Counted from the first letter of the stretch, positions 1 through 17,698 are shown. The stretch is DNA of 21,990 bases from a virus (IMGVR_UViG_3300025122_005837:1-21990), one strand, 5' to 3'. Numbers and translations: made by a program. The notes: a model not told the origin generated them from the sequence alone.

Positions 1-4
1 TCTA

Positions 5-430
5 ATCCTTTCCAAACACACGGATGGTAGCATACTGATTAGCGTGCGTCACGATTTTTGATGCAACAAGATCGTGCTGTTCAATCAAGCGGAAAGCGGT
101 ATTCAACGATGTCGTAGTCAAATCGCCAACATTAGTAACGATTTGATCTGCACGACTGTCTGCGGCAGCCAGAAGAGCATTGAAGATATTGGTATCTTCT
201 TCCTTCTGGATAGCTTCTTTCGCTTTAATCTGAGCGCGGTCTACGATGTAAAATCTTCGAGCTTTGATTTCGCTCAAACGGACTGTTGGGTAAGCAGCAA
301 TTTCGAAAGTAGGAACAAGGAATTCCTCACCTTCCTGGATTGCCTGTGGAACGGCACCTCTACGCGACACGATGTGCGCAATTGAGGCAACGTCACGCTC
401 ATAGCGTGCGAGAGCACCTTGTGGGAGCTC
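5..430 (-). CDS. MCP exon 5 (142 codons, probably ends at a further intron)
   Basis: It begins ELPQGALARYERD after the terminal G of intron 4 (431). A TTG at 433 could be mistaken for a start codon, but it belongs to the intron. The protein contains EEFLVPTFEIAAYPTV and a helix-rich region ending IVTHANQYATIRVFGKD, capsid-like throughout. The frame hits TAG at 2-4, in the middle of what should be the shell domain. All earlier exons also meet a stop within a few codons of the splice site, so GAT (5-7) is probably the last codon before a fifth intron. True termination is the alternative. Confidence 0.75.
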
Positions 431-2529
431 CAATATTTACTAGTCATCCCTTTCGGGAGCTTTGGACTATACCATCATCTCTTAAAATAAGAGAGCCCAG
501 CGTATTAGCATTTGAACATTTCAGAACAAACACTCTGTCCTAGAAAGGACAAGTCTCTACGGGGTCACGAAGACTTCCCTCGGGATTGCCATATATCCTT
601 TATGGATACGTAGGGTTCCCCGATATGAGCTAGGTTTTTTTATAGACCCTCGCGGGTCTAGGTGGACGAGATCCGGTCAATTATTGCCCGATTTTGTATT
701 TAAAAATTTGTAAAATATAAGGTTCTATAATTTTTATAAATCTGCGACTATTTTGATTATTCAAATATAGCATCTTGCCATTTGATTGATACAATTTGGC
801 TCTTGCATCTGAAATTTTTAGATCTAGGGAATATTGCAATTTCATAAAATCTACAAAATTATTAAGACTAACATCGTCATAGCTTTGTGTATGAAAGCAG
901 CATGAATGTCCATTGTAACTGCCATCATCCATATAAAACACTGCTAAAGCAAGAGGAGACACATAGATATTTTTAGGAATAATCTTTTCTCCATTAGGGT
1001 AAAAAGTTTTTCTTAGCTTGTAAAACTCTTCATGGAATACAGTCTCAAACAAATACTGTTGCTTGATTTTGCATTTTTTCCCACTGATTTTAATCTCTTT
1101 TCCTCCTTCGTATCTTGTTCTCATCGGATTGTGAATAAAATCCCTTAGCTTTTCATATTTCCATTCAACATATTCTCTTTGTTCTTCGGAATGAGCTTCT
1201 GTAAAACGACAACTGCGAACAGAATCGCAATTGTGTTTATAGATAGACCCATCTCCTAATATACTTCCGACGAGAATATCTTTTTGTTCTTGTGTCATTC
1301 TCCGACTACGATATTTCATAAATTCACGTTTGCCATAAATCGCTGTGACTCCATTATTTTTAAGAATTTTTCTACAAGTCACGGGGTGATATCCATGCTT
1401 TTTAGATATCTCTGTCGGGGACATCTGTGAATTATAATCTTTCGCCATTTCTTTTAGATCTATATTTTTATAATGTGTATTTTTTATTCCATGCCTTTTT
1501 GCATGAGCATGAATAGTTTTAACATTACATCCAACTTCATTAGCAATCTTCTGAAAAGTCTTTAGCCTATCATACATCTCCTCTAGTTCGTCTTTTGTAA
1601 AGAACCACCTGTTTGCATTCGATATGTTACCTTTTATTTTACGCATATATACCTATCGACAATAAGTGTTTCAAAAATCCACCATAAGCAGTTTTCTACC
1701 AACCAATTATGTTACCACAGGAATTTTTTATTTCCTGTTTCTGTATATTACTATACAGTTCGGCATATATCATTATATCCCTTTTAGGAATATAAACGGG
1801 CGCTCGTGGGCAGTTTATTGGATAAGCTCCTCACTGCCTATGCTCTACACTTTCTAACTTACTTTTATACTATTCAGTTAGCTTAGCTCGGTATTATCCC
1901 ATAAGGACTTCCACCGAATTCACCCGTTAAGGCCATTTATTTAGCCTGATACTCCAACGACCGACGAATTGGCTCGACCATGGCTTGCATACTAACTACG
2001 GCTTTCGCCGCTATCATATTGATATTTGTAGTCTGGACTATCCCATTGCCCGTTCTGGGCACTCTTATTATAGTCTCTGCACCTTTCAGATTTCTCTAAC
2101 TTGGCTCAGGATTAGCATATCATTAAGACTTAGCCTTCCCTGAATTTAAAGAGTTGTTAACTTAATGTTCCCATTAAGTAGGCCCATTATTGAGCCAAAG
2201 CCACGCGGCCTTCATCAGTTTCGAGTGCTTGCAATGATGTTATCGTTAAAGCTTTTTATCTTTAACTTCTGCATATTACTATGCAGTTCGGCATATCTCT
2301 TTATATTCTAAAGAATATACTGGGCGCTCGTGGGAATATTACTGGCATATCTTTTTAGACTTAGCCTCGATTCCTATGCTCTGCACCTTTTAGAAACTTT
2401 CATTTCTAACTTGGCTCAGGATTGTCCCAAAGGGATGTTCCCTGAATTCACCCAGACACAGCCCACTAGTTAGTAAGCGATAATCATTTCTTTATCTGCA
2501 TCAGAAACACTATCTTTCATAAGAGGCAT
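5..2529 (-). CDS. Major capsid protein gene, interrupted by at least four group I introns (3' end outside window)
   Basis: The joined gene is exons 2529-2476, 2231-2193, 1987-1943, 1703-1677 and 430-5, giving 197 codons before the window edge. The ATG at 2529 follows AAGGAG with an 8-nt gap; a second in-frame ATG lies at 2520. Every exon has an in-frame stop shortly into the adjoining intron, but the joined reading is open. The central joined part reads EYQA|VGRKLLMVD|ELPQ and continues into GALARYERD, then a long region ending in HANQYATIRVFGKD. I recognise this as the N-terminal arm and start of the shell domain of an HK97-fold phage capsid protein. The identity rests on remembered family sequence and on its place after portal and protease genes, not on a search. 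Exon ends were set from P1 pairing, the terminal intron G and the reading frame. Exon 3's start is the least certain. Confidence 0.8.
431..1676 (-). ncRNA. Group I intron 4 of MCP (1246 nt) carrying a LAGLIDADG gene in the P1 loop
   Basis: The 5' splice site is defined by P1 (exon GGTGGAT with IGS GTCCACC at 661-667). The endonuclease gene at 681-1646 lies inside this P1 loop. The catalytic core is downstream: P2 (TAGACCC-GCGA-GGGTCTA, 643-660), Q-like GGCAATCCCGAGG (to 590), R-like CGTAGAGACTTGT (549-561) and S GGTATAGTCC (464-473). The P9 hairpin CCC-GAAA-GGG is at 448-457. The intron ends at the G of TTG (431), directly before GAG CTC of exon 5. Exact P3/P8 pairings were not modelled. Confidence 0.78.
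681..1646 (-). CDS. LAGLIDADG homing endonuclease, intron-encoded
   Basis: A 321-residue double-motif LAGLIDADG endonuclease that would cut intronless MCP alleles and drive intron homing. Motif 1 is LVGSILGDGSI (125-135, acidic D132). Motif 2 is LALAVFYMDDGSYNG (232-246, D240/D241). Residues 1-110 hold two helix-turn-helix-like segments (about 17-54 and 64-100) that probably extend DNA contact. Both acidic catalytic positions are present and the frame is intact, so it may be active. The ATG at 1646 has only a weak upstream AGG and lies in the P1 loop of its host intron, 30 nt past the 5' splice site. Translation from unspliced RNA would therefore sequester or delay P1. Confidence 0.9.
   Translation of the reverse strand: MRKIKGNISNANRWFFTKDELEEMYDRLKTFQKIANEVGCNVKTIHAHAKRHGIKNTHYKNIDLKEMAKDYNSQMSPTEISKKHGYHPVTCRKILKNNGVTAIYGKREFMKYRSRRMTQEQKDILVGSILGDGSIYKHNCDSVRSCRFTEAHSEEQREYVEWKYEKLRDFIHNPMRTRYEGGKEIKISGKKCKIKQQYLFETVFHEEFYKLRKTFYPNGEKIIPKNIYVSPLALAVFYMDDGSYNGHSCCFHTQSYDDVSLNNFVDFMKLQYSLDLKISDARAKLYQSNGKMLYLNNQNSRRFIKIIEPYILQIFKYKIGQ
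1677..1703 (-). CDS. MCP exon 4: 27-nt micro-exon (9 codons)
   Basis: This exon encodes VGRKLLMVD, which completes the capsid sequence between SLEYQA and ELPQGAL. Its start follows the terminal G of intron 3. Its end follows from a 7-bp P1 between GGTGGAT (1683-1677) and GTCCACC (667-661), about 1 kb away across the endonuclease gene. The frame has TAA upstream and TGA downstream, so it is coding only after splicing on both sides. Confidence 0.75.
1704..1942 (-). ncRNA. Group I intron 3 of MCP (239 nt, no ORF)
   Basis: P1 is AGGCU (exon) with GGCCU, looped by AAATAAAT. A Q-like segment (TAATACCGAGCTAAG) lies near 1882-1896, R (AGTGTAGAGCATAGG) at 1837-1851 and S (GATATATGCCGAA) at 1759-1771. 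The hairpins CTGTATAGTAATATACAG and ACAGGAA/TTCCTGT match intron 1 in order and shape, and CCCACGAGCGCCC at 1798-1810 is identical to intron 1. The tail TAACATAATTG ends at the terminal G, 1704. Confidence 0.78.
1943..1987 (-). CDS. MCP exon 3 (15 codons)
   Basis: This exon encodes QAMVEPIRRSLEYQA, a stretch typical of phage capsid N-terminal arms. The upstream 27 nt are also open in this frame, so the exon could begin at 2014. I prefer 1987 because the GAAA-capped hairpin upstream fits an intron P9 and the joined protein reads better. The 3' end AGGCU pairs with GGCCU in the following intron. Confidence 0.7.
1988..2192 (-). ncRNA. Group I intron 2 of MCP (205 nt, no ORF)
   Basis: This is a compact group I intron. 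P1 pairs exon GGCU with IGS GGCC. A GGAA-capped stem (CTTAATG/CATTAAG) follows. The P4/Q signature AATCCTGAGCCAAG is at 2100-2113, R (GGTGCAGAGACTATA) at 2069-2083 and S (GGATAGTCC) at 2035-2043, forming a T4-type P7. A CGGC-GAAA-GCCG hairpin and the tail TAGTTAGTATG precede the proposed terminal G at 1988. An alternative 3' splice site 27 nt upstream is also in frame. Confidence 0.8.
2193..2231 (-). CDS. MCP exon 2 (13 codons)
   Basis: This exon encodes QALETDEGRVALA. Its start was placed after the intron tail TAACATCATTG by analogy with the matching tail of intron 3. Its end (GCT) was placed by P1 pairing of GGCU with GGCC downstream. The same frame hits TAA two codons past the exon end. 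Confidence 0.7.
2232..2475 (-). ncRNA. Group I intron 1 of MCP (244 nt, no ORF)
   Basis: The core element AATCCTGAGCCAAG lies at 2410-2423 and is a textbook group I P4/Q signature. The R-like stretch GGTGCAGAGCATAGG is at 2373-2387, and its partner ATATGCC near 2291-2298 closes P7. Two hairpins follow (CTGCATAGTAATATGCAG, then GTTAAAG/CTTTAAC). The 3' tail ends in TAACATCATTG, with the terminal G at 2232. It closely resembles intron 3, including an identical CCCACGAGCGCCC at 2322-2334. Confidence 0.8.
2476..2529 (-). CDS. MCP exon 1 (18 codons)
   Basis: This exon encodes MPLMKDSVSDADKEMIIA. The ribosome site AAGGAG and an 8-nt spacer precede the ATG. The last codon is GCT; its U can form the U-G wobble of P1 in the helix between GCUUAC (2478-2473) and GUGGGC downstream. 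Without splicing, the frame stops two codons later (TAC TAA). Confidence 0.75.
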
Positions 2530-3327: not shown

Positions 3328-6300
3328 TTAGCCTTTTTGAAACGCCTGTCTTAGAGCAAAATCTGGCGTTTCGGTGGCAGCATCATTTTGTTTTTGCAGT
3401 GAAAACAACGAAGACAGTTTAGTAGCGAGCTCATCTTGGGAATTTCGCACACTACTTGCTTCATTGATAACCAAAGGCTGCTCTAGCCCTCTTGACTCTG
3501 TAGTAAACCCTTTTTTGCTTTCATTCGCTTGTTTCGCAATAGCATTACGAAAGTCTTGAATTTGAGCAGGCTCATACTTAGCGAGTTCATTTACCTTACT
3601 TTCAAGTTGCGCTGCTTCAATCAAATCATATTGAAGCATTTCAGCCGCGACTGAGAAAGCAAGTTTTCTGGACTCTATAAGAACCTCGGGTTTTTCGGTA
3701 TCGCCACCAGCGATAACAGTGCCTTTATCTCTAGTTTGTTTTTCTGGGCCTATTTCCCCACCTTCTTCGTGTCCCATCAATGCATTATCTACTGGGAGTT
3801 CTGGGTGATCTTTAGGGGAAGTAGGTTTATCGCCAAGGGTTTCTTTTTCGTGACCCATATGGCTATTATTAGCTGTTTCCGTATTAGTCGGAGTATCAGC
3901 AGTAAATTTAGGTTCATGTCCCATAGAGGTATTATCTTTTATGGGTTTAATATCTTCATCATCAGCGACTGGCTTTTTTGGTTCGAGCTTTTTATTTTGA
4001 GCTTCGAGAATTTTCTGAGCCATAGCAGCCAGTCTATCTTTCGGGTTACCGAATCCGTTCATTGCTCTGAGTTCAGCTTCTAGCATTTCTTCATTTGAAG
4101 CGGCGAGATTTGTTTTACCAGCGCCTTCATCGCCACCGGTATATCTAGCATCGCCACCTTCGAGTCCGACTTCATCTTCATGTCCCATTGTGCCCTTATC
4201 AGAAGGAATATGGGGTTGTGGTTTATCTTGTGGGTTCAAGTCAGAGTCTTCATGTCCCATGAGAGCATTATCTCTTGGGATACTTGGTTTTCCACCTGTA
4301 GGAACGGTTTCACTTTCGTGACCCATTTCGCTAGCGTGTCCACCATCTGCTGGGTTACCAGCTGAATAGGGTTTCGTATTTTCATCATCTTGAACATTTT
4401 GTTGTTGTATTTCGGTTTCGCCGGCTTCTTTAGTTTGCATACCTATAGCTTTAGCAACTGCGCTAAGATCGAGTTGAATATCTTGAGTTTTACCGATACT
4501 ACCTTTCATATGAGCAGCCTCCTTATAGGGATATTCGCCTGATGCTTCTGTGCCATCATCACCTTTGGCCAGTTCTCCGATTCCTTCTCCCACGCCTTCG
4601 GCAATACCGCCAACTGCTTTACCAGCTCCTGCTGCGATTCCGCCAGCTGCTGCCCCCACTCCAGCTGCTATTCCAGGCAGCAATGGTTTTTTGTCTCCTT
4701 CTACATATTGATCGCCTTCATCTGCGGGATTTTTTTCTTGACCGCAAATTGGACATGTGCCTGTGGGCTGTCCACAATCTGGGCAATCTGGGCAATCTCC
4801 ACCTGTTCCTTCTTCCATGACTTCGCCAACATCTTCAATAGACTCAGCGGGAGATCCGTCGTCTACTATACCTTCTTCTATACCTTCTTCTCCAGGAACG
4901 CCTTCGACTTCAACGTCGATGGCAACTTCATCTCCTGATCCGAGATCGTCAGTGGGATCACTACCCAGGGCGATATCAGCAGCAGCGTCGAGTTCAAGCA
5001 AGACTTCTTTTGGAAGTTCGAGCGTTACTGTTTTGCCACCACCACCTACTTCGTCTCCTAATCCTTCGTCTCCTAATACTTCATCTTCGCCTCCTACTTC
5101 TTCTGTTACTTCATCACCAAATGGATCTGCGCCTAAATCATCTTCTACACCTTCGTCTTCCAGTCCGACTTCTTCTACGAACTGAGCAATTTTCTCTGCC
5201 AAGATATCTTCTTGCGAAGCCATAACAATCTTCAAGGACTCGCAAACAGATGCAGCGTCCTTAATATTTAGTCCGAGACGAATCTGGTCTTCTACGCAGC
5301 AATCAGAGCCGTCATTATCTTCCCAAACTTCTCCAAGTTTTACGGCAAGATTCGTATTATACATACCGGCTTTCTTAAGCGACGAGCAAACACAATCGGC
5401 GAGCACTTTGCCTTCGCAAGGTCCACTCAATCCAACTGCATTATCACCAAATCGTCTTGACAGTCTTTCCGTGCATGCTTCCATTGGGAAGTCATCGCCA
5501 TACGTATGATATGCTGCTTTAAATTGAGTAAGCACATCTGGCTCGCCTTTGCCTGCCAGCTTAATACTCTTAAGAGCTCCTGCTTTCTTCATCTTCAGAA
5601 TAGTCTCTGATTTCTTTTGAATATCAAAAACATCAAACTGTTCAGCAGTAATACTTTGATCTTTCAGGGCTTTCGTAAATCGAGATTTTGCACGACGGCA
5701 AGACACACAATCACTTTCTGGCGTGCGAGGTGTCCACTCCCACTGAGCATACGCTACTTTAGTTTTTAAATCCGTAGCATAAGACAGTTTATAAGATGTG
5801 CCTGTATCTAAGCAATACCATTTGCCTTTTCCGAGGGCAACAGTATTTATTTTACCGTTACCTGGGCTCACTGAGCCTAGTTTAATTTTAGCTTCAGCGA
5901 GTTTCTTAAGTGAACCTGGCTGTAAGCGGACCATTGCGGCGAGTCCCATATCATTACCCATTCCTTCTTGCCCTGGCTCTGGAAGTTCAAAACCTTCGCC
6001 TTCGCCGAGACCAAGACCTTCAGCATCTTCGCCACCTTCTTCCGCTTCGGGAGTCAGGTTTGCCCAACGGGTGACATCTACAGAAACCTTAAATTGCATT
6101 TCTGAGCTACAGTTGTTACACTTACCTTTACCGGCAACGATATCGACATCACTGCTGCCGCATACGACGCAAATTGATCCGGGTGGCTTGGGCTCCAGAT
6201 CTTCCGTGCCTTCGAGTCCTTCTGCGCCCGGTCCTGCGGGGTCCGTAAAAGACTCCATTCCTGGGGCTTGATCCATAGCGCCTGGAGGTGTAGGCAGTGT

Positions 6301-9300
6301 TGCACCTGCTCCTGGAGCCTGCGATGCCCCTCCTTGACCTCCCATTTGACCGCCCATCATTTGGGCTTCTTTATCTGTTTTCTTTTCGCCCTTCGCTTCT
6401 TTAACAATATTTTCTCTTGTTTCTGCTAGCGAAGGAGTTGTAGAGAGCATTGAGCCACCTGCTCCGCCGCCAGAAGCAACGCCTGATCCGAGATCAGATG
6501 TCATAGGTCCGCCAGTCATGTCCTCTGTCTTTTTTCTCCTCAGCTGCTTATCAAACGGTCCTGAGAGCTCTTCTGCTGCACACATCTCTTCATCTGTGAG
6601 CATATCTTTCTCTTTGAACGTTCCAACGCCCGTTTCGTTCTGGTCATCAATCTTGATTTCCAAAACAACGGTATGCGGATTAGTATTAGTTCCTTCTTCG
6701 GGAGGAGCGATCATTGCTTGTCCAAATTTATTAACTGCTCGTGCAAATGCTTTCTTGTTTTTAGGATCTTCTTTAATTTCACTCAAAGCAAAACGAACCT
6801 CGTAAAGCCCGTCTTCTGGCTTATCAAGATCTGAAACAGCATTCTCAAAGGCAGCGAATTTATCAATAGCAATTTCATCTGGCTTCGTTTCAGCTATTTT
6901 ATGTTGAACGAGGGCATTAACTTTTGCCATTGCCTTTTTATTACCAAGTGAATACTCAATAGCTTCATAAACATCTTCTACTTTCACACCGTGCGTGCCG
7001 TTCTTAGCAACAGAATAGATAAGAGCATCAAGATCGGTAGGCGTATCAGCTGAAGCAAGTTTCTTAAAATAAGAAATATTACTTTCGAGATTTTCGAGAG
7101 CTTGCTTTTTATGAGGAAGCGAATGCAGCAAAGTTAAAAACGCAACTTTACCAGAAGAATTATCATCATTTGCTATAGCAGCGGCTCGCTGCAATTCTTT
7201 AGGAGACTTACTATATTTAGCAACAGCATCAGAGATAGCATGCGTAGCGACCTTAAACACTGTATTCGTATAATTCGAGCTTGCCCATCGTTTAATGCCG
7301 TAGTCTTGTTCTTTAAGTTGGCCTTCGGTAATAACTTCGGGAGGACCGACAAAGCGATGAGTAGTGAGAAGCGTTCTCAGCTGGTCTTCTGTAATTGTTT
7401 CTGTCCAGTCATCTGGGAGATTAGCACTAGCTAGGCGGCTAAATTCAGTCCACTGTTTTTCGGTAATAACTTCGGGCCAATCTTTCCATCTTGAAATATA
7501 GCCATCGGTAACCGTATCAAGTTGACCCTCTGTAATTACGTCGTATGACCCCTTGCGTGTCTGAGGGGAGTTACTAGTCGTGTCATCTAGTTCACTTGCG
7601 TCTTTTTCTCCAGAAATTTCAGCTTCTGTAATCTGTTCCCACGATTCATTTGTACGTGGATGCAATTTAGCATTTTCAGACTTAGAAAGTTGTTTTTCTG
7701 TAATAACTTCTGTCTGGGCGTCACTATCACTAGCGGGATTTCCGACTGCCGCAGTTTTATCTGTTTCTTTGGTTCCTGGCATGGCGTTAATTAACTCCTT
7801 GTTGGCCAAAAGTTGTTTTCCGGCTTTTTCCGGATCACTCTCAATCACCTTCTGTAGATCTTCCGGAAAAACAGAAGCAGCGGCAGATCGAATAATCTTA
7901 TCTCCCTTCGCTTCAATAACCATTGTTCCATCGGGTGAAGTTTTATCAATAACAATTCGACGAGCTTCTTTGTCAGAAACATCGCCTTCAGACACTTCAA
8001 TATACGTTTTAGACACGCTAGATCTCCTAGAGAGTTTATTTACACTATCTTTAAGATTACAAATCTTTTCCCTTACTTTAGAAGAAGATGTTAATAAATC
8101 CTTCTTTTTATTTAAAAAATTAGAGGAAAGTTTTGGTTTAGTTACTGAACCCAGCCCAGACATATCTTGAGTAGCTATCCCAGATGGAGTAACTTGAGTA
8201 GTTGTTCCTCCCGCTGGAGGCATTTCAGGAGACATTTCAGGAGTTGGCTGGGGCTCGGCAGCAGGAGGCTGAGATATATCAATTCCTGCTGCTTCAATAT
8301 CGGGAGAGGGAAGTTGAGCATATCCCATCTCCGAAAGCTCATCAACAACATTTTGTACATCAGCCATCGCTTTAACAAGATCGCTAACATACTCCATAGA
8401 AACTTCTTCTTTCTGCGAAAGCATACTTTTAACAACTTTCTCCATGCTGCCCATGCTTGCAGTCAAGTTATTTAATTCTTCTTGTCCTGCAACTTTCTGA
8501 AGGCTAGGAGTGTCATTTCTCGCTCTACGTAATTTATCTATAGTTTCTTTAATCTCAGATATTTTCTGTGTAACGTTAGGAACATGTAAAATGTCACAAA
8601 CACCGCATCTATGACATGCGGGATTTACAACAAAACTATTTTCAATGAATTTGAGTCCGTAGTTATGTTCGAAAATCTGCTGATCTTTATAATGATTTGT
8701 CTTCTTTTCACCTCGTTTTTTACCACAAAGGGGACATGGCTCATCTCCAGCATCTTCACTATTATGATATTCACAAGGATAATCGCCAGATACTTTACGA
8801 TTTTTACGTTCTTTTATATGCGCGCAATATGTATCTGCTGTGGGGGCGCGATGATGGCATACAGAACAACAACTTGCGTCCACCGAGCAGCCCATACTAG
8901 TATTTGAGACTGCCAAATGATTAACACAATAGGTGTGATCTTCTTCGACTTCTATGTCGTAAACAATACCATCAAAATCAACTTCGTCTATTTTTTTTAC
9001 CCTCCTTAAATCAACATTCTCTAATGCATGCCATAAAGCAGGAGGATGACACGACTCATCAGCTTTCTTGTAAATCAATTTCTCTCGTAAATTACCGGAC
9101 GTACTCAAGCCAGCATGTATTTCATATACTAATTTGTGTCCCCATCTATCGTCATCATCAGATAAGGCAAAATTAGACCTGACGCCGATTTTAGCCATTA
9201 AGATTCTTAACTGACTGGCGAGATAAGGAGAGACAGTAGCTGCGCCATAATATCTCCCTTTTACGTTATATCCATCCCCCTCTATATATCCCGCCAACAA

Positions 9301-10527
9301 AGATGCCGTCTTGGATAGACTTAAATGTAAAAGTTTAGGATGTAATCTTTTTCCATCTGAATATTCGCCACATTTATCATAGAACCAATCCGCAATGTCT
9401 TTGCCATATAGGTTCACTCTCGTTTGAGAAGATTTGGGATAAAAATTAGTAGTCGGAGGGTTACGGTGATTTGAAAATACTTTTTCCAATAATTCTGTGC
9501 AACGAAAGGCAAGGGTCTCCAACTCGGTATGAGCAAAATTAAATATAGCACTATGGCGAACCCCATTTCTTTTCTCAAAAGAGCCTTCTGCTAAAAATAA
9601 ACCAATAAGAAACGCTTCGTCTTCCGTAACCCAGTCATCGTTTGATTCGCTCAAAAATTTTGGTTCAACTAAAAAATCACCTTCTTGCAAGTCTCTTGCT
9701 TGAACCTTTTGAATGTATTGGTGATAGAAATCCTGCCCTCTTGGATTGTGCCCCTGTTTGAATATACGGCTAAAGTTGCCCCTTGTTATACGAGAATCCT
9801 TATGAACCATAAGCTCCTCGCCACATCCACATGCACATCCACATGCACACTCTTCTGGCAAACGATATACTACAATATTATGTCCGGCTGTACATACAAG
9901 CGGTTCGCTTATGCCTTCTGTTTTAATTGAATACAAAGGGTAATTATAAGCACGCTGTTTCTTGCCCAAAACTTTTCGTATATTACCGGCCCCAGATATA
10001 ACTTTATCTCCAGGTTGTATGTCAATAATGGCTCTTTCTGTGCCATCGCTCATTAAAACCGGAGCGTCGGCAGGAAAACAACCAGAAACATATTTTTCTT
10101 CTATACCTCTTGCTAGTTTTGGATATGCAACTTTATCAACTCTAGCGATAATAAAGATGCCGCCTTCTTTATCATCATACCACGAATGAACACATTCACC
10201 CCTTGCGTTCTCTACATCATTATTTTGATGATTTGTAAAAATAGGAACGCCGGTAAATGTATGAGCAGCTTTCTTTAATTCTGCTTCACAAAAAGCATCC
10301 CCATTATCGTTAACAACATCTTTCTCTATTGCAAATATTTTAACAAACAAGTGATCTGGATGCTTATCAACAGCAGACTTGATATCAAATCCGCCTAGTT
10401 TAATTTCTTCTGCTTCTTTGACAGAAGCAGTTTTGATCATTTCTGGTAATTCGAATATATCCCAATCTTTGGGATTATTCAAAGGTTCTATCGTGAAACT
10501 ATTAAATGCTATTTTTTTAAATGACAT
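3328..10527 (-). CDS. Prohead protease fused to a very large scaffold-like region, with an intein
   Basis: The 2399-residue precursor should be 2006 residues after intein removal. Residues 1-149 plus 543 onward form a prohead-protease-like domain: likely catalytic His100 in TNHQN and the likely nucleophile Ser544 in TSMGCSVD. A Cys/His-rich stretch follows (C-x2-C pairs, about 550-650), then predicted coiled coil. Six (I)TE repeats lie at about 935-1070, a zinc-ribbon-like CVVC...CNNC near 1450-1475 and an acidic region at about 1776-1910. A second Cys cluster (CPDCPDCG...CPICG) sits near 1910-1930, a Gly/Ala-rich segment near 1948-1986 and MGHE repeats at 2065-2254. Phage prohead proteases are usually 200-300 residues, so most of this is probably scaffold or internal head protein. 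The protease call is from motif and gene order. Confidence 0.7.
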   Translation of the reverse strand: MSFKKIAFNSFTIEPLNNPKDWDIFELPEMIKTASVKEAEEIKLGGFDIKSAVDKHPDHLFVKIFAIEKDVVNDNGDAFCEAELKKAAHTFTGVPIFTNHQNNDVENARGECVHSWYDDKEGGIFIIARVDKVAYPKLARGIEEKYVSGCFPADAPVLMSDGTERAIIDIQPGDKVISGAGNIRKVLGKKQRAYNYPLYSIKTEGISEPLVCTAGHNIVVYRLPEECACGCACGCGEELMVHKDSRITRGNFSRIFKQGHNPRGQDFYHQYIQKVQARDLQEGDFLVEPKFLSESNDDWVTEDEAFLIGLFLAEGSFEKRNGVRHSAIFNFAHTELETLAFRCTELLEKVFSNHRNPPTTNFYPKSSQTRVNLYGKDIADWFYDKCGEYSDGKRLHPKLLHLSLSKTASLLAGYIEGDGYNVKGRYYGAATVSPYLASQLRILMAKIGVRSNFALSDDDDRWGHKLVYEIHAGLSTSGNLREKLIYKKADESCHPPALWHALENVDLRRVKKIDEVDFDGIVYDIEVEEDHTYCVNHLAVSNTSMGCSVDASCCSVCHHRAPTADTYCAHIKERKNRKVSGDYPCEYHNSEDAGDEPCPLCGKKRGEKKTNHYKDQQIFEHNYGLKFIENSFVVNPACHRCGVCDILHVPNVTQKISEIKETIDKLRRARNDTPSLQKVAGQEELNNLTASMGSMEKVVKSMLSQKEEVSMEYVSDLVKAMADVQNVVDELSEMGYAQLPSPDIEAAGIDISQPPAAEPQPTPEMSPEMPPAGGTTTQVTPSGIATQDMSGLGSVTKPKLSSNFLNKKKDLLTSSSKVREKICNLKDSVNKLSRRSSVSKTYIEVSEGDVSDKEARRIVIDKTSPDGTMVIEAKGDKIIRSAAASVFPEDLQKVIESDPEKAGKQLLANKELINAMPGTKETDKTAAVGNPASDSDAQTEVITEKQLSKSENAKLHPRTNESWEQITEAEISGEKDASELDDTTSNSPQTRKGSYDVITEGQLDTVTDGYISRWKDWPEVITEKQWTEFSRLASANLPDDWTETITEDQLRTLLTTHRFVGPPEVITEGQLKEQDYGIKRWASSNYTNTVFKVATHAISDAVAKYSKSPKELQRAAAIANDDNSSGKVAFLTLLHSLPHKKQALENLESNISYFKKLASADTPTDLDALIYSVAKNGTHGVKVEDVYEAIEYSLGNKKAMAKVNALVQHKIAETKPDEIAIDKFAAFENAVSDLDKPEDGLYEVRFALSEIKEDPKNKKAFARAVNKFGQAMIAPPEEGTNTNPHTVVLEIKIDDQNETGVGTFKEKDMLTDEEMCAAEELSGPFDKQLRRKKTEDMTGGPMTSDLGSGVASGGGAGGSMLSTTPSLAETRENIVKEAKGEKKTDKEAQMMGGQMGGQGGASQAPGAGATLPTPPGAMDQAPGMESFTDPAGPGAEGLEGTEDLEPKPPGSICVVCGSSDVDIVAGKGKCNNCSSEMQFKVSVDVTRWANLTPEAEEGGEDAEGLGLGEGEGFELPEPGQEGMGNDMGLAAMVRLQPGSLKKLAEAKIKLGSVSPGNGKINTVALGKGKWYCLDTGTSYKLSYATDLKTKVAYAQWEWTPRTPESDCVSCRRAKSRFTKALKDQSITAEQFDVFDIQKKSETILKMKKAGALKSIKLAGKGEPDVLTQFKAAYHTYGDDFPMEACTERLSRRFGDNAVGLSGPCEGKVLADCVCSSLKKAGMYNTNLAVKLGEVWEDNDGSDCCVEDQIRLGLNIKDAASVCESLKIVMASQEDILAEKIAQFVEEVGLEDEGVEDDLGADPFGDEVTEEVGGEDEVLGDEGLGDEVGGGGKTVTLELPKEVLLELDAAADIALGSDPTDDLGSGDEVAIDVEVEGVPGEEGIEEGIVDDGSPAESIEDVGEVMEEGTGGDCPDCPDCGQPTGTCPICGQEKNPADEGDQYVEGDKKPLLPGIAAGVGAAAGGIAAGAGKAVGGIAEGVGEGIGELAKGDDGTEASGEYPYKEAAHMKGSIGKTQDIQLDLSAVAKAIGMQTKEAGETEIQQQNVQDDENTKPYSAGNPADGGHASEMGHESETVPTGGKPSIPRDNALMGHEDSDLNPQDKPQPHIPSDKGTMGHEDEVGLEGGDARYTGGDEGAGKTNLAASNEEMLEAELRAMNGFGNPKDRLAAMAQKILEAQNKKLEPKKPVADDEDIKPIKDNTSMGHEPKFTADTPTNTETANNSHMGHEKETLGDKPTSPKDHPELPVDNALMGHEEGGEIGPEKQTRDKGTVIAGGDTEKPEVLIESRKLAFSVAAEMLQYDLIEAAQLESKVNELAKYEPAQIQDFRNAIAKQANESKKGFTTESRGLEQPLVINEASSVRNSQDELATKLSSLFSLQKQNDAATETPDFALRQAFQKG
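3766..4326 (-). repeat. Six MGHE peptide repeats near the C-terminus of the protease fusion
   Basis: MGHE occurs at 4326-4315, 4260-4249, 4188-4177, 3924-3913, 3858-3847 and 3777-3766. Several have a similar lead-in: RDNALMGHE, SDKGTMGHE, KDNTSMGHE and VDNALMGHE. The linkers are Pro-, Lys- and Asp-rich and look disordered. The role is unknown; repeated short linear binding motifs are one reading. Confidence 0.85.
7315..7725 (-). repeat. Six (E)VITE(G/K)QL-type peptide repeats in the protease fusion
   Basis: The copies are EVITEKQL, EQITEAEI, DVITEGQL, EVITEKQW, ETITEDQL and EVITEGQL, spaced irregularly over residues about 935-1070. A diverged copy, DTVTDGYI, follows the third. DNA identity between copies is limited, so they are old or selected at protein level. 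Each has I-T-E, which fits the T4 gp21 cleavage rule of cutting after (I/L)-x-E. Confidence 0.85.
8902..10080 (-). mobile_element. Intein with LAGLIDADG endonuclease in the prohead protease
   Basis: A 393-residue intein occupying residues 150-542. It starts at Cys150 (CFPADAPVLMSDG, block A) and ends VSN followed by Thr543. Block B is CTAGHNIVV. The endonuclease motifs are IGLFLAEGSF and LAGYIEGDGYN, both with acidic residues. Block F is YDIEVEEDHTYCV. The penultimate residue is Ser, not the usual His. Removal joins KYVSG to TSMGCSVD, restoring the motif that should carry the catalytic serine. Next to block B is an odd run, ECACGCACGCGEE. Confidence 0.9.
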
Positions 10528-10538
10528 AATATACTCTT

Positions 10539-10598
10539 TTAATATGCTTTAGTAAGTTTTAATTGTGTTTTGCCTGATGCGTTTTTAATGAGTTTCAT
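10539..10598 (-). CDS. 19-codon mini-gene carrying the SGKT/LTKA motif
   Basis: It encodes MKLIKNASGKTQLKLTKAY, then TAA. AAAGGAT lies just before the ATG at 10598. It sits between the stop of the 523-residue gene (10611) and the start of the protease fusion (10527). It copies the first 18 residues of the 523-residue protein almost exactly, at both DNA and protein level. It could be a short translated peptide or a remnant left by duplication or recombination. Expression is not shown. Confidence 0.4.
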   Translation of the reverse strand: MKLIKNASGKTQLKLTKAY

Positions 10599-10602
10599 TT
10601 TT
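10546..10602 (-). repeat. 57-bp direct repeat, copy 1
   Basis: Matches 12130-12186 except for about five positions; the first 35 positions are identical. It covers the mini-gene and the spacer before it. The two copies bracket the 523-residue gene in the same orientation. Confidence 0.85.
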
Positions 10603-10610
10603 ATCCTTTG

Positions 10611-12182
10611 TTAAGATTGTTCTTTCTTTCTCGTAAGCATAGACCATCCTTGTTGTTGAGCTATCTTCAGCCACTCATTTTTAGTAATTCTCAGCACTGT
10701 TTTGCCATTTGCTTTTTTAACTAACTTAAGTTTAGCAGATGCTGATATTTCAGGAGACACATTAGGAGATACATTGGGAGTCATATCTACACTTGTAGTC
10801 TCAGGCATTGTTGCCATAGATGTTCTACTTTGCGTAGCTTTGCGTACAGCGTTATATAGCCTATTTAGTTCAACAGCTAACTCCACGTTACCCATCGATC
10901 CCGTTCGTCCAAACAATTTAGGATTAACATATCCTTCATCGGTAAAGACATCTACACTATACTTTTTAATAAATCCATAAGCAGCATCTAAAAAGGCTTT
11001 CATATTTTGAAGAACTTCTCGCCCCTCTATAGATCCTAAATATTCATCAGAAAATTGGCCTTTCTGCATGCCTGCTATTTGCGCATTCACATTATTCAAT
11101 GCGGCTTGCACGCCTTGCAAAGCTTTGATCTGAAAATTTATTTCTTTAAGCTTCGGAGATTGTTGTTTCTGATAAGATTGGAATGAACGATATGCATCTG
11201 GCTTTTGTACTGAACCTCCGGGCAGCGTTCCTGGTTCATGCTCAGGAACAGGCTGGATAGTAGGCTCTCGAATTTCAGGAAGTTCTTCTCCCATCCTGTC
11301 TTCTCTGTTCTGCCAGTCTTGTTGTCTTTTTTCGTTTTTATCTGTTGTGTTCCCAATCTCTGCTTGGGCAATATTCCTAAGTGTTTGCTTAAGGATATCA
11401 GATATATTAAAAGTTTCAACATCAGTTAACAATTGCTGTGGATTTTCTTGATACCAGAAAAGAGCAGTATCAATTGCATCTTGATCATTGAGTGTTCCTG
11501 ACTTTAATGACTCTAGGGACTCTTGTCTCCATTGTTCTGAGCCCTCTGAGGCATACTCGGGCTGAGATTCAGTTGCCTGCACTTGACTGTTTAAAATCGC
11601 TAACCTTTCGTCGATTAATTTTGCAACTCTTTGAACTCTAAGCGGAATCGTAATAAGTCCAACATTACCATCTAGCTTATCAATTTTAGCATTCCATTGT
11701 TGAATTGCGCTATTAGCCGTACCTCTAACTTCTTCTCTTCTTGCAGAATCTGTCAAATTAAGTTGCTCTACTGTGCCTTCGTATGGCAACTCAACAGGAT
11801 CACCTGACTGCAAATCAAGCAGCCAAAGTTTACCTGGATTGCTTTTAGCTTTAGACTTTTCATGATGCAAATAATAATATTCTTTACCATTCAAGGTAAC
11901 AACATTGCGATTTGTTGGATAAAATACTTTGGGCAAAAAAATGCCTTCTACGCCTCCTACGTCTTTCAGCAACCCTTTAAGTTCTCTGATTTTTGTGCTA
12001 GGAAGCATACGATTGATATCAAGCAACAATCGTATTCCTTCTTCTTCCATTTTGCTTTTAGTAAGAGGAGAAGGAGGCACAACTGGCATAGCAGTTTTAG
12101 TCCACCGCTGCCCTATCTTCTGCCATTCAGCTTTAGTAAGTTTTAATTGTGTTTTGCCTGATGCAGTTTTAATAAGTCTCAT
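10611..12182 (-). CDS. Virion-type protein of unknown function with SGKT/LTKxEW motif at both ends
   Basis: 523 residues. The N-terminus (LIKTASGKTQLKLTKAEWQK) and the C-terminus (KKANGKTVLRITKNEWLKIA, then QQQGW) are two copies of one motif. The middle is helical and Gln-rich, with a Pro-rich stretch near 300-330, and has no enzyme motif I recognise. The ATG at 12182 has only a weak AAGAG before it. It lies between the portal and the protease fusion, so a head-internal or scaffold-associated role is likely but inferred. Because the same motif recurs in the mini-gene, it may be a targeting tag. Confidence 0.6.
   Translation of the reverse strand: MRLIKTASGKTQLKLTKAEWQKIGQRWTKTAMPVVPPSPLTKSKMEEEGIRLLLDINRMLPSTKIRELKGLLKDVGGVEGIFLPKVFYPTNRNVVTLNGKEYYYLHHEKSKAKSNPGKLWLLDLQSGDPVELPYEGTVEQLNLTDSARREEVRGTANSAIQQWNAKIDKLDGNVGLITIPLRVQRVAKLIDERLAILNSQVQATESQPEYASEGSEQWRQESLESLKSGTLNDQDAIDTALFWYQENPQQLLTDVETFNISDILKQTLRNIAQAEIGNTTDKNEKRQQDWQNREDRMGEELPEIREPTIQPVPEHEPGTLPGGSVQKPDAYRSFQSYQKQQSPKLKEINFQIKALQGVQAALNNVNAQIAGMQKGQFSDEYLGSIEGREVLQNMKAFLDAAYGFIKKYSVDVFTDEGYVNPKLFGRTGSMGNVELAVELNRLYNAVRKATQSRTSMATMPETTSVDMTPNVSPNVSPEISASAKLKLVKKANGKTVLRITKNEWLKIAQQQGWSMLTRKKEQS

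Positions 12183-13144: not shown

Positions 13145-13158
<14 letters not shown>
12694..13158 (-). CDS. Unknown 154-residue basic protein overlapping the portal end
   Basis: Starts MGTFNLSSHKLARNYRPPP and contains a basic segment (KKSRKRIRDRG), then RWEGHDYTTDGDYFIVAGPS and a C-terminal SLTDLADVKIPRHLRG. I chose ATG 13158, with GGAG 12 nt upstream, over an upstream in-frame TTG at 13176. This overlaps the portal stop by 14 nt, implying translational coupling. Position after the portal would fit a head-completion or portal-associated protein, but no family is recognised. Confidence 0.6.

Positions 13159-17698
<4,540 letters not shown>

Follow-up and report, generated by a model that had tools for sequence, protein, structure and literature searches.

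Evidence for four group I introns within 55 codons of a phage-G-type major capsid gene

Does a run of short open stretches on one strand of a viral contig encode a single capsid protein once the intervening segments are removed, and, if so, how could so many introns have come to lie within 55 codons? The record in question, IMGVR_UViG_3300025122_005837, is reported as a complete virus record, and the window analysed here comprises all 21,990 bases of it. An earlier note on this DNA had proposed that its capsid gene is interrupted by at least four group I introns within 165 coding nucleotides. Homology, Rfam matches and covariation agree with this proposal, and we consider it very probable that the gene is split by four such introns and spliced into one protein.

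Structure and identity of the capsid gene

On the minus strand of the window (2529→1), this uncultured giant-phage relative carries a major capsid gene of the type found in Bacillus phage G. A megablast search with the window found no match among 50,697 phage records. The exon junctions were set with three homologues lacking introns at these sites, L005, L006 and L007. Once joined, the exons align over their full length with the single open frame of L005 (95% amino acid identity), and are 91% and 84% identical to L006 and L007, respectively. The spliced structure has 197 codons, the same length as L005. Exon 1 (2476..2529, minus strand, as are all the exons; 54 nt, MPLMKDSVSDADKEMIIA) was aligned to all three homologues and shares 94.4% of its nucleotides with L005. 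The alignment to L005 likewise defines exon 2 (2193..2231, 39 nt, QALETDEGRVALA), exon 3 (1943..1987, 45 nt, QAMVEPIRRSLEYQA) and exon 4 (1677..1703, 27 nt, VGRKLLMVD), and thereby the exon of nine codons that had been claimed. The 3' border of exon 4 is also used by introns of four related contigs, L086, L118, L119 and L134. Exon 5 (5..430) adds 426 nt up to the last codon, GAT, after which the relatives continue with FYDEATQREI...

The exons preceding intron 4 sum to 165 nt, i.e. 55 codons. Relatives fix the 3' border of intron 1 at ...ACATCATTG^CAAGC and the 5' border of intron 2 at ...TTGGCT^CAATAA. With the borders taken from uninterrupted homologues, the 5' exon ends in U and the intron ends in G in all four cases, the frame runs through the exons without frameshift or stop, and all four junctions are in phase 0, as was expected from the earlier note. 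The introns sit after GCT or GAT codons, and 15 of the 19 GCT triplets in the capsid coding sequence end at codon position 3; the uniform phase thus follows from GCT codon usage and needs no special explanation. For the same reason, phase 0 was rejected as a sign of selected exon skipping.

A profile search assigned the spliced protein to the major head protein family phrog_2522 (E 7.7e-35, residues 28-194), and it is 49% identical over 96% to the Bacillus phage G major head protein, gp27; the query in both cases was a draft splice with 2 aa in excess overall. This bears out the capsid-like character attributed to the product. Codon differences from L005 are mostly synonymous (56, against 5 that change the amino acid), which indicates purifying selection on the gene.

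One part of the original description did not hold, namely a capsid ending at position 5. The relatives extend about 93 residues beyond the last codon of the window, with FYDEATQREIITTGLYGHLWTAD..., so the contig stops inside the capsid gene. The terminal TAG was also considered as the capsid stop codon and rejected, since it is the contig end and no relative terminates there. The window ends 4 nt past codon 197 and the L006 contig 6 nt past the same codon; such a coincidence of two contig ends suggests that a variable insertion lies here. The last four bases, TAGA (1..4, minus strand), could be the first bases of a fifth intron, and the junction GAT^TAGA resembles a 5' splice site in shape. 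A fifth intron is therefore possible, though four bases cannot prove it; a search for the continuation of the contig end (TTTGGAAAGGATTAGA) returned 43 matches, none of them in a capsid gene.

The four introns and the endonuclease of intron 4

All four introns are matched by the Rfam group I model RF00028, whose curated cut-off is 50 bits, and three of them exceed it, in agreement with the group I signatures noticed earlier. Intron 1 (2232..2475, minus strand, as are the others; 244 nt, 59.5 bits) is IA-like, with P7.1/P7.2, and intron 2 (1988..2192, 205 nt, 64.6 bits) has no P7.1/P7.2. Intron 3 (1704..1942, 239 nt, 51.6 bits) belongs to the family of intron 1 according to nhmmer and covariation. 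None of these three contains an ORF. Intron 4 (431..1676, 1246 nt) scores 32.5 bits (E 6e-5), below the cut-off; it is classed as group I through its other features and four orthologues, and this assignment is less certain than for introns 1-3.

In all introns, the strands of P1, with its U-G pair at the splice site, and of the P3, P4, P7 and P8 core are present and paired, the helices having been picked by hand. The P1 pairing suspected previously is thus plausible throughout, though weak on the exon side in intron 1. P3, P4, P6a, P7, P7.1, P8, P9 and P9.1 of intron 1 are fully paired and covary with intron 3 and with one intron of L005. Introns 1 and 3 share the IA-like P7.1/P7.2 and a P9.1 hairpin, and form a family with that L005 intron; for instance, P7 is GCAUA/UAUGC in both of them but GACUA/UAGUC in the L005 intron, a compensatory difference. 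In intron 2, whose helices were checked by hand, the L9 loop is GAAA and P5 contains a receptor-like motif (CUAAG...UAUG), both recognised by eye. An exact search of IMG/VR for the core of introns 1 and 2, AATCCTGAGCCAAGTTAGA, gave no match.

P1 of intron 4 pairs GGUGGAU (1683-1677) with GUCCACC and is identical in the orthologues, which follow the same codon in L086, L118, L119 and L134. Across the five codon-55 introns, P2, P3, P7.1, P7.2 and P8 are fully paired despite differing sequences, and most of these helices covary. When strands are exchanged between phages, just 35-75% of the pairing is retained in the codon-55 introns, and the mini-introns behave similarly; since the helices were picked by hand, this control is supportive and not a formal test. 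Covarying helices therefore back introns 1, 3 and 4. Collectively, the four ribozymes, packed into 165 coding nucleotides, represent no fewer than three structural types.

The P1 loop of intron 4 holds a gene for a LAGLIDADG homing endonuclease (681..1646, minus strand; PF03161, E 3.1e-32; phrog_11023), the only endonuclease gene among the four introns. It looks intact, and its PF03161 match spans positions 2-168 of 168, so the LAGLIDADG domain is complete. Its location means that P1 must form across about 1 kb, which counts against our main reading. The codon-55 intron of L119/L134 bears its endonuclease in the P6 region, as opposed to the P1 loop in the window, and the endonuclease genes probably entered this intron separately. 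A 4-bp hairpin, GGAU-CUC-GUCC, adjoins the internal guide of intron 4 (window 660-690, minus strand) and mimics the P1 splice-site helix; it may compete as a decoy 5' splice site located after the endonuclease gene, a further point against that reading.

The minus-strand order of the neighbouring genes is a portal gene with inteins, a very large intein protein, a 194-aa ORF and then the capsid region. The portal ORF (13145-17698, minus strand, 1517 aa) has internal intein-type and LAGLIDADG_3 matches and probably contains two inteins; at its C-terminus lies a DUF559/MTES_1575 nuclease-like domain that is conserved in relatives. A 2399-aa ORF (3328-10527, minus strand) with a weak head-maturation-protease match has an intein at about residues 147-540 and also contains extended acidic regions of low complexity. 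Counting the introns, mobile elements are found in three genes of the contig.

Origin of the cluster and introns in other capsid genes

The three small exons differ from their surroundings. Exons 2-4 share 75.7% of their nucleotides with L005, compared with 94.4% for exon 1 and 90.6% for exon 5, i.e. 27 differences in 111 positions against 43 in 480 (Fisher p 3e-5), nearly all of them synonymous. Exons 2-4 are, moreover, slightly closer to L006 (81%) than to L005, though L006 is more distant overall. Such excess divergence is the pattern of homing repair with co-conversion of flanking exons. The simplest account would be one transfer of the entire cluster, driven by the endonuclease of intron 4, and we regard this block transfer by homing as somewhat probable. 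The endonuclease would cut uninterrupted capsid genes near codon 55, repair would copy intron 4 together with adjoining exon DNA, and the endonuclease-free introns 1-3 would hitch-hike. The similarity between introns 1 and 3 does not exceed their similarity to introns of other phages; they are thus not recent mutual copies, and the donor cluster would have been assembled from a diverse pool. Intron 3 had been considered as a recent duplicate of intron 1 and was rejected on the same grounds.

Alternatively, the introns may have been gained singly, through their own, now lost endonucleases or by reverse splicing, with no movement as a block. This is a serious possibility, though we do not regard it as probable. 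Introns 1-3 carry no endonuclease genes, intron 2 is of a different structural type, the distance between introns 1 and 3 is roughly that separating either from introns of unrelated phages, and other capsids of the family bear single introns at single sites. Against gain one by one, the three small exons have diverged from the nearest relative as one block, and exons 1 and 5 have not. We prefer transfer of the whole cluster.

Apart from the window, 9 contigs among the 92 distinct relatives retrieved have an interrupted capsid gene. L005 has two introns in the C-terminal half of the gene (104.7 and 61.4 bits), L086 has three and, immediately ahead of codon 55, an exon of 35 nt, and L122 has two, while L052, L053, L054, L082/L134, L118 and L119 carry one or more each. 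In L052/L053 (4740-5990) and L122 (5116-6471), an intron lies near codon 34, and its 5' exon seemingly lacks the terminal U. When 24 related records of up to 548 kb were searched with RF00028, 7 matches were obtained, 2 of them above the cut-off, and all those that could be placed fell in the capsid gene; as the model misses several introns shown by homology, these counts are a lower bound and absence elsewhere is weak evidence. The capsid gene appears to be an intron hot spot.

An intron-only pattern and iterative nhmmer also place introns 1 and 3 in a family that is large among environmental phages. At about 40 IMG/VR loci (L208 to L326), the flanking exons were typed blind to the gene. Among the matches listed, 20 of the 25 assigned loci are major head protein genes, which span at least four PHROG families (1328, 9953, 283 and 3437); the other five are three tape-measure genes, one psbA and one weak DnaB helicase match. 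With a generic phage-intron pattern as a control, 7 of 17 were major head protein genes among the matches listed (Fisher p 0.02 against 20 of 25), but the loci are not phylogenetically independent and the bias should be read as a lead. A compact, mostly endonuclease-free IA-type family might prefer genes with abundant late mRNA through reverse splicing, dense clusters being the result. This reading, which we hold to be unlikely, covers capsid genes of unrelated families as well as psbA, and its mechanism is putative.

In L317 (IMGVR_UViG_3300042987_001812, 6527-11257, plus strand), a cyanophage psbA gene for the photosystem II D1 protein contains nine group I introns and ten exons, two of which measure 14 nt (8767-8780) and 18 nt (10937-10954). 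Eight of its introns exceed the RF00028 cut-off, and the remaining one has 48.7 bits. Upstream of the gene is a PhotoRC-II RNA, and the contig is related to Synechococcus phage S-SRM01. This psbA gene is more extreme than the four-intron capsid gene. A major head protein gene of phrog_1328 has four compact group I introns in L261 (328-2500, plus strand), and another has at least two in L265 (2900-4200, plus strand); L261 and L265 come from related phages and have two introns in common, 92-96% identical.

Predicted splicing, precedents and significance

On this reading, the late transcript would be a single precursor in which each ribozyme would cut after the U of the P1 U-G pair and ligate the exons, yielding the phage-G-type capsid protein. 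The second codon of each intron is an in-frame stop (TAC TAA, CAA TAA, AAA TAA and TTT TGA in introns 1-4), and these early stops would release ribosomes ahead of the ribozyme core. In the introns of phage T4, ribosomes likewise leave before the core.

The guides of introns 2 and 3 are nearly interchangeable, and the 5' exon ends pair with both at -5.9 to -7.6 kcal/mol. Some mis-splicing is therefore likely, and skipping of exon 3 is predicted. Alternative splicing by design, producing in-frame, exon-skipped capsid isoforms through phase 0 and the shared guides, would also fit the nearly equal match of these exon ends to either guide, and exon skipping has been published for Twort orf142 (PMC10136302) and SIOphi (PMC11878797). 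However, GCT codon usage already accounts for phase 0, and the residues that would be skipped are highly conserved in uninterrupted relatives, which makes assembly of such isoforms improbable; we judge a designed isoform system very unlikely. It is even harder to believe that this copy is a pseudogene, dead or unable to splice, whose role is taken by a second, intact capsid gene: the contig shows only a fragment of the genome and intron 4 lies under the Rfam cut-off, but the exons all share one phase with no frameshift or stop, the codon differences from L005 (56 synonymous, 5 amino-acid-changing) point to selection, and the ribozyme helices are intact. We thus retain splicing into a single capsid protein as the working reading.

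The arrangement had been called exceptional. It is indeed unusually dense, but less exceptional than was claimed in view of two published cases. In the first, the MCP gene of a crAss-like phage (Zeta group, OLRF01000054) is described in five fragments (PMC7886860). It is also a capsid gene in five pieces, but the phage is not phage-G-like, and its segments were recognised mainly through endonuclease domains, which three of the four introns lack here. The second is orf142, the tail tube gene of Staphylococcus phage Twort, with three group I introns, a 23-nt exon and observed exon skipping (PMC10136302). The likeness lies in several introns in a structural gene, two of them similar, and in a very short exon; Twort has three introns whose splicing was demonstrated by experiment, whereas the four described here are known from sequence.

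Other precedents are more distant. Mycobacteriophage LittleE (Cluster J) has a group I-like capsid intron with a LAGLIDADG gene and splicing shown by RT-PCR (PMC3706429), but this is a single intron in a mycobacteriophage capsid gene, as against four in a phage-G-type one. Jug phages bear many compact (~206-nt) group I introns in essential genes, with splicing backed by RNA reads for 37 of 76 (PMC12363816); they form a different clade, and the genes highlighted are terL, nrdD and DNA polymerase. Capsid introns, a five-piece MCP gene and shorter exons were therefore already known, and it is the packing density that stands out. No equally dense published case was found in the literature searched, whose coverage is incomplete.

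Introns packed so tightly make standard gene calling lose a phage hallmark gene. The locus also offers a natural four-ribozyme precursor for studying how adjacent group I introns avoid mis-pairing. Furthermore, when the related loci are considered as well, compact group I introns of environmental phages seem to favour capsid genes, a preference that would depart from the customary stress on DNA-metabolism genes for phage introns (PMC11878797).
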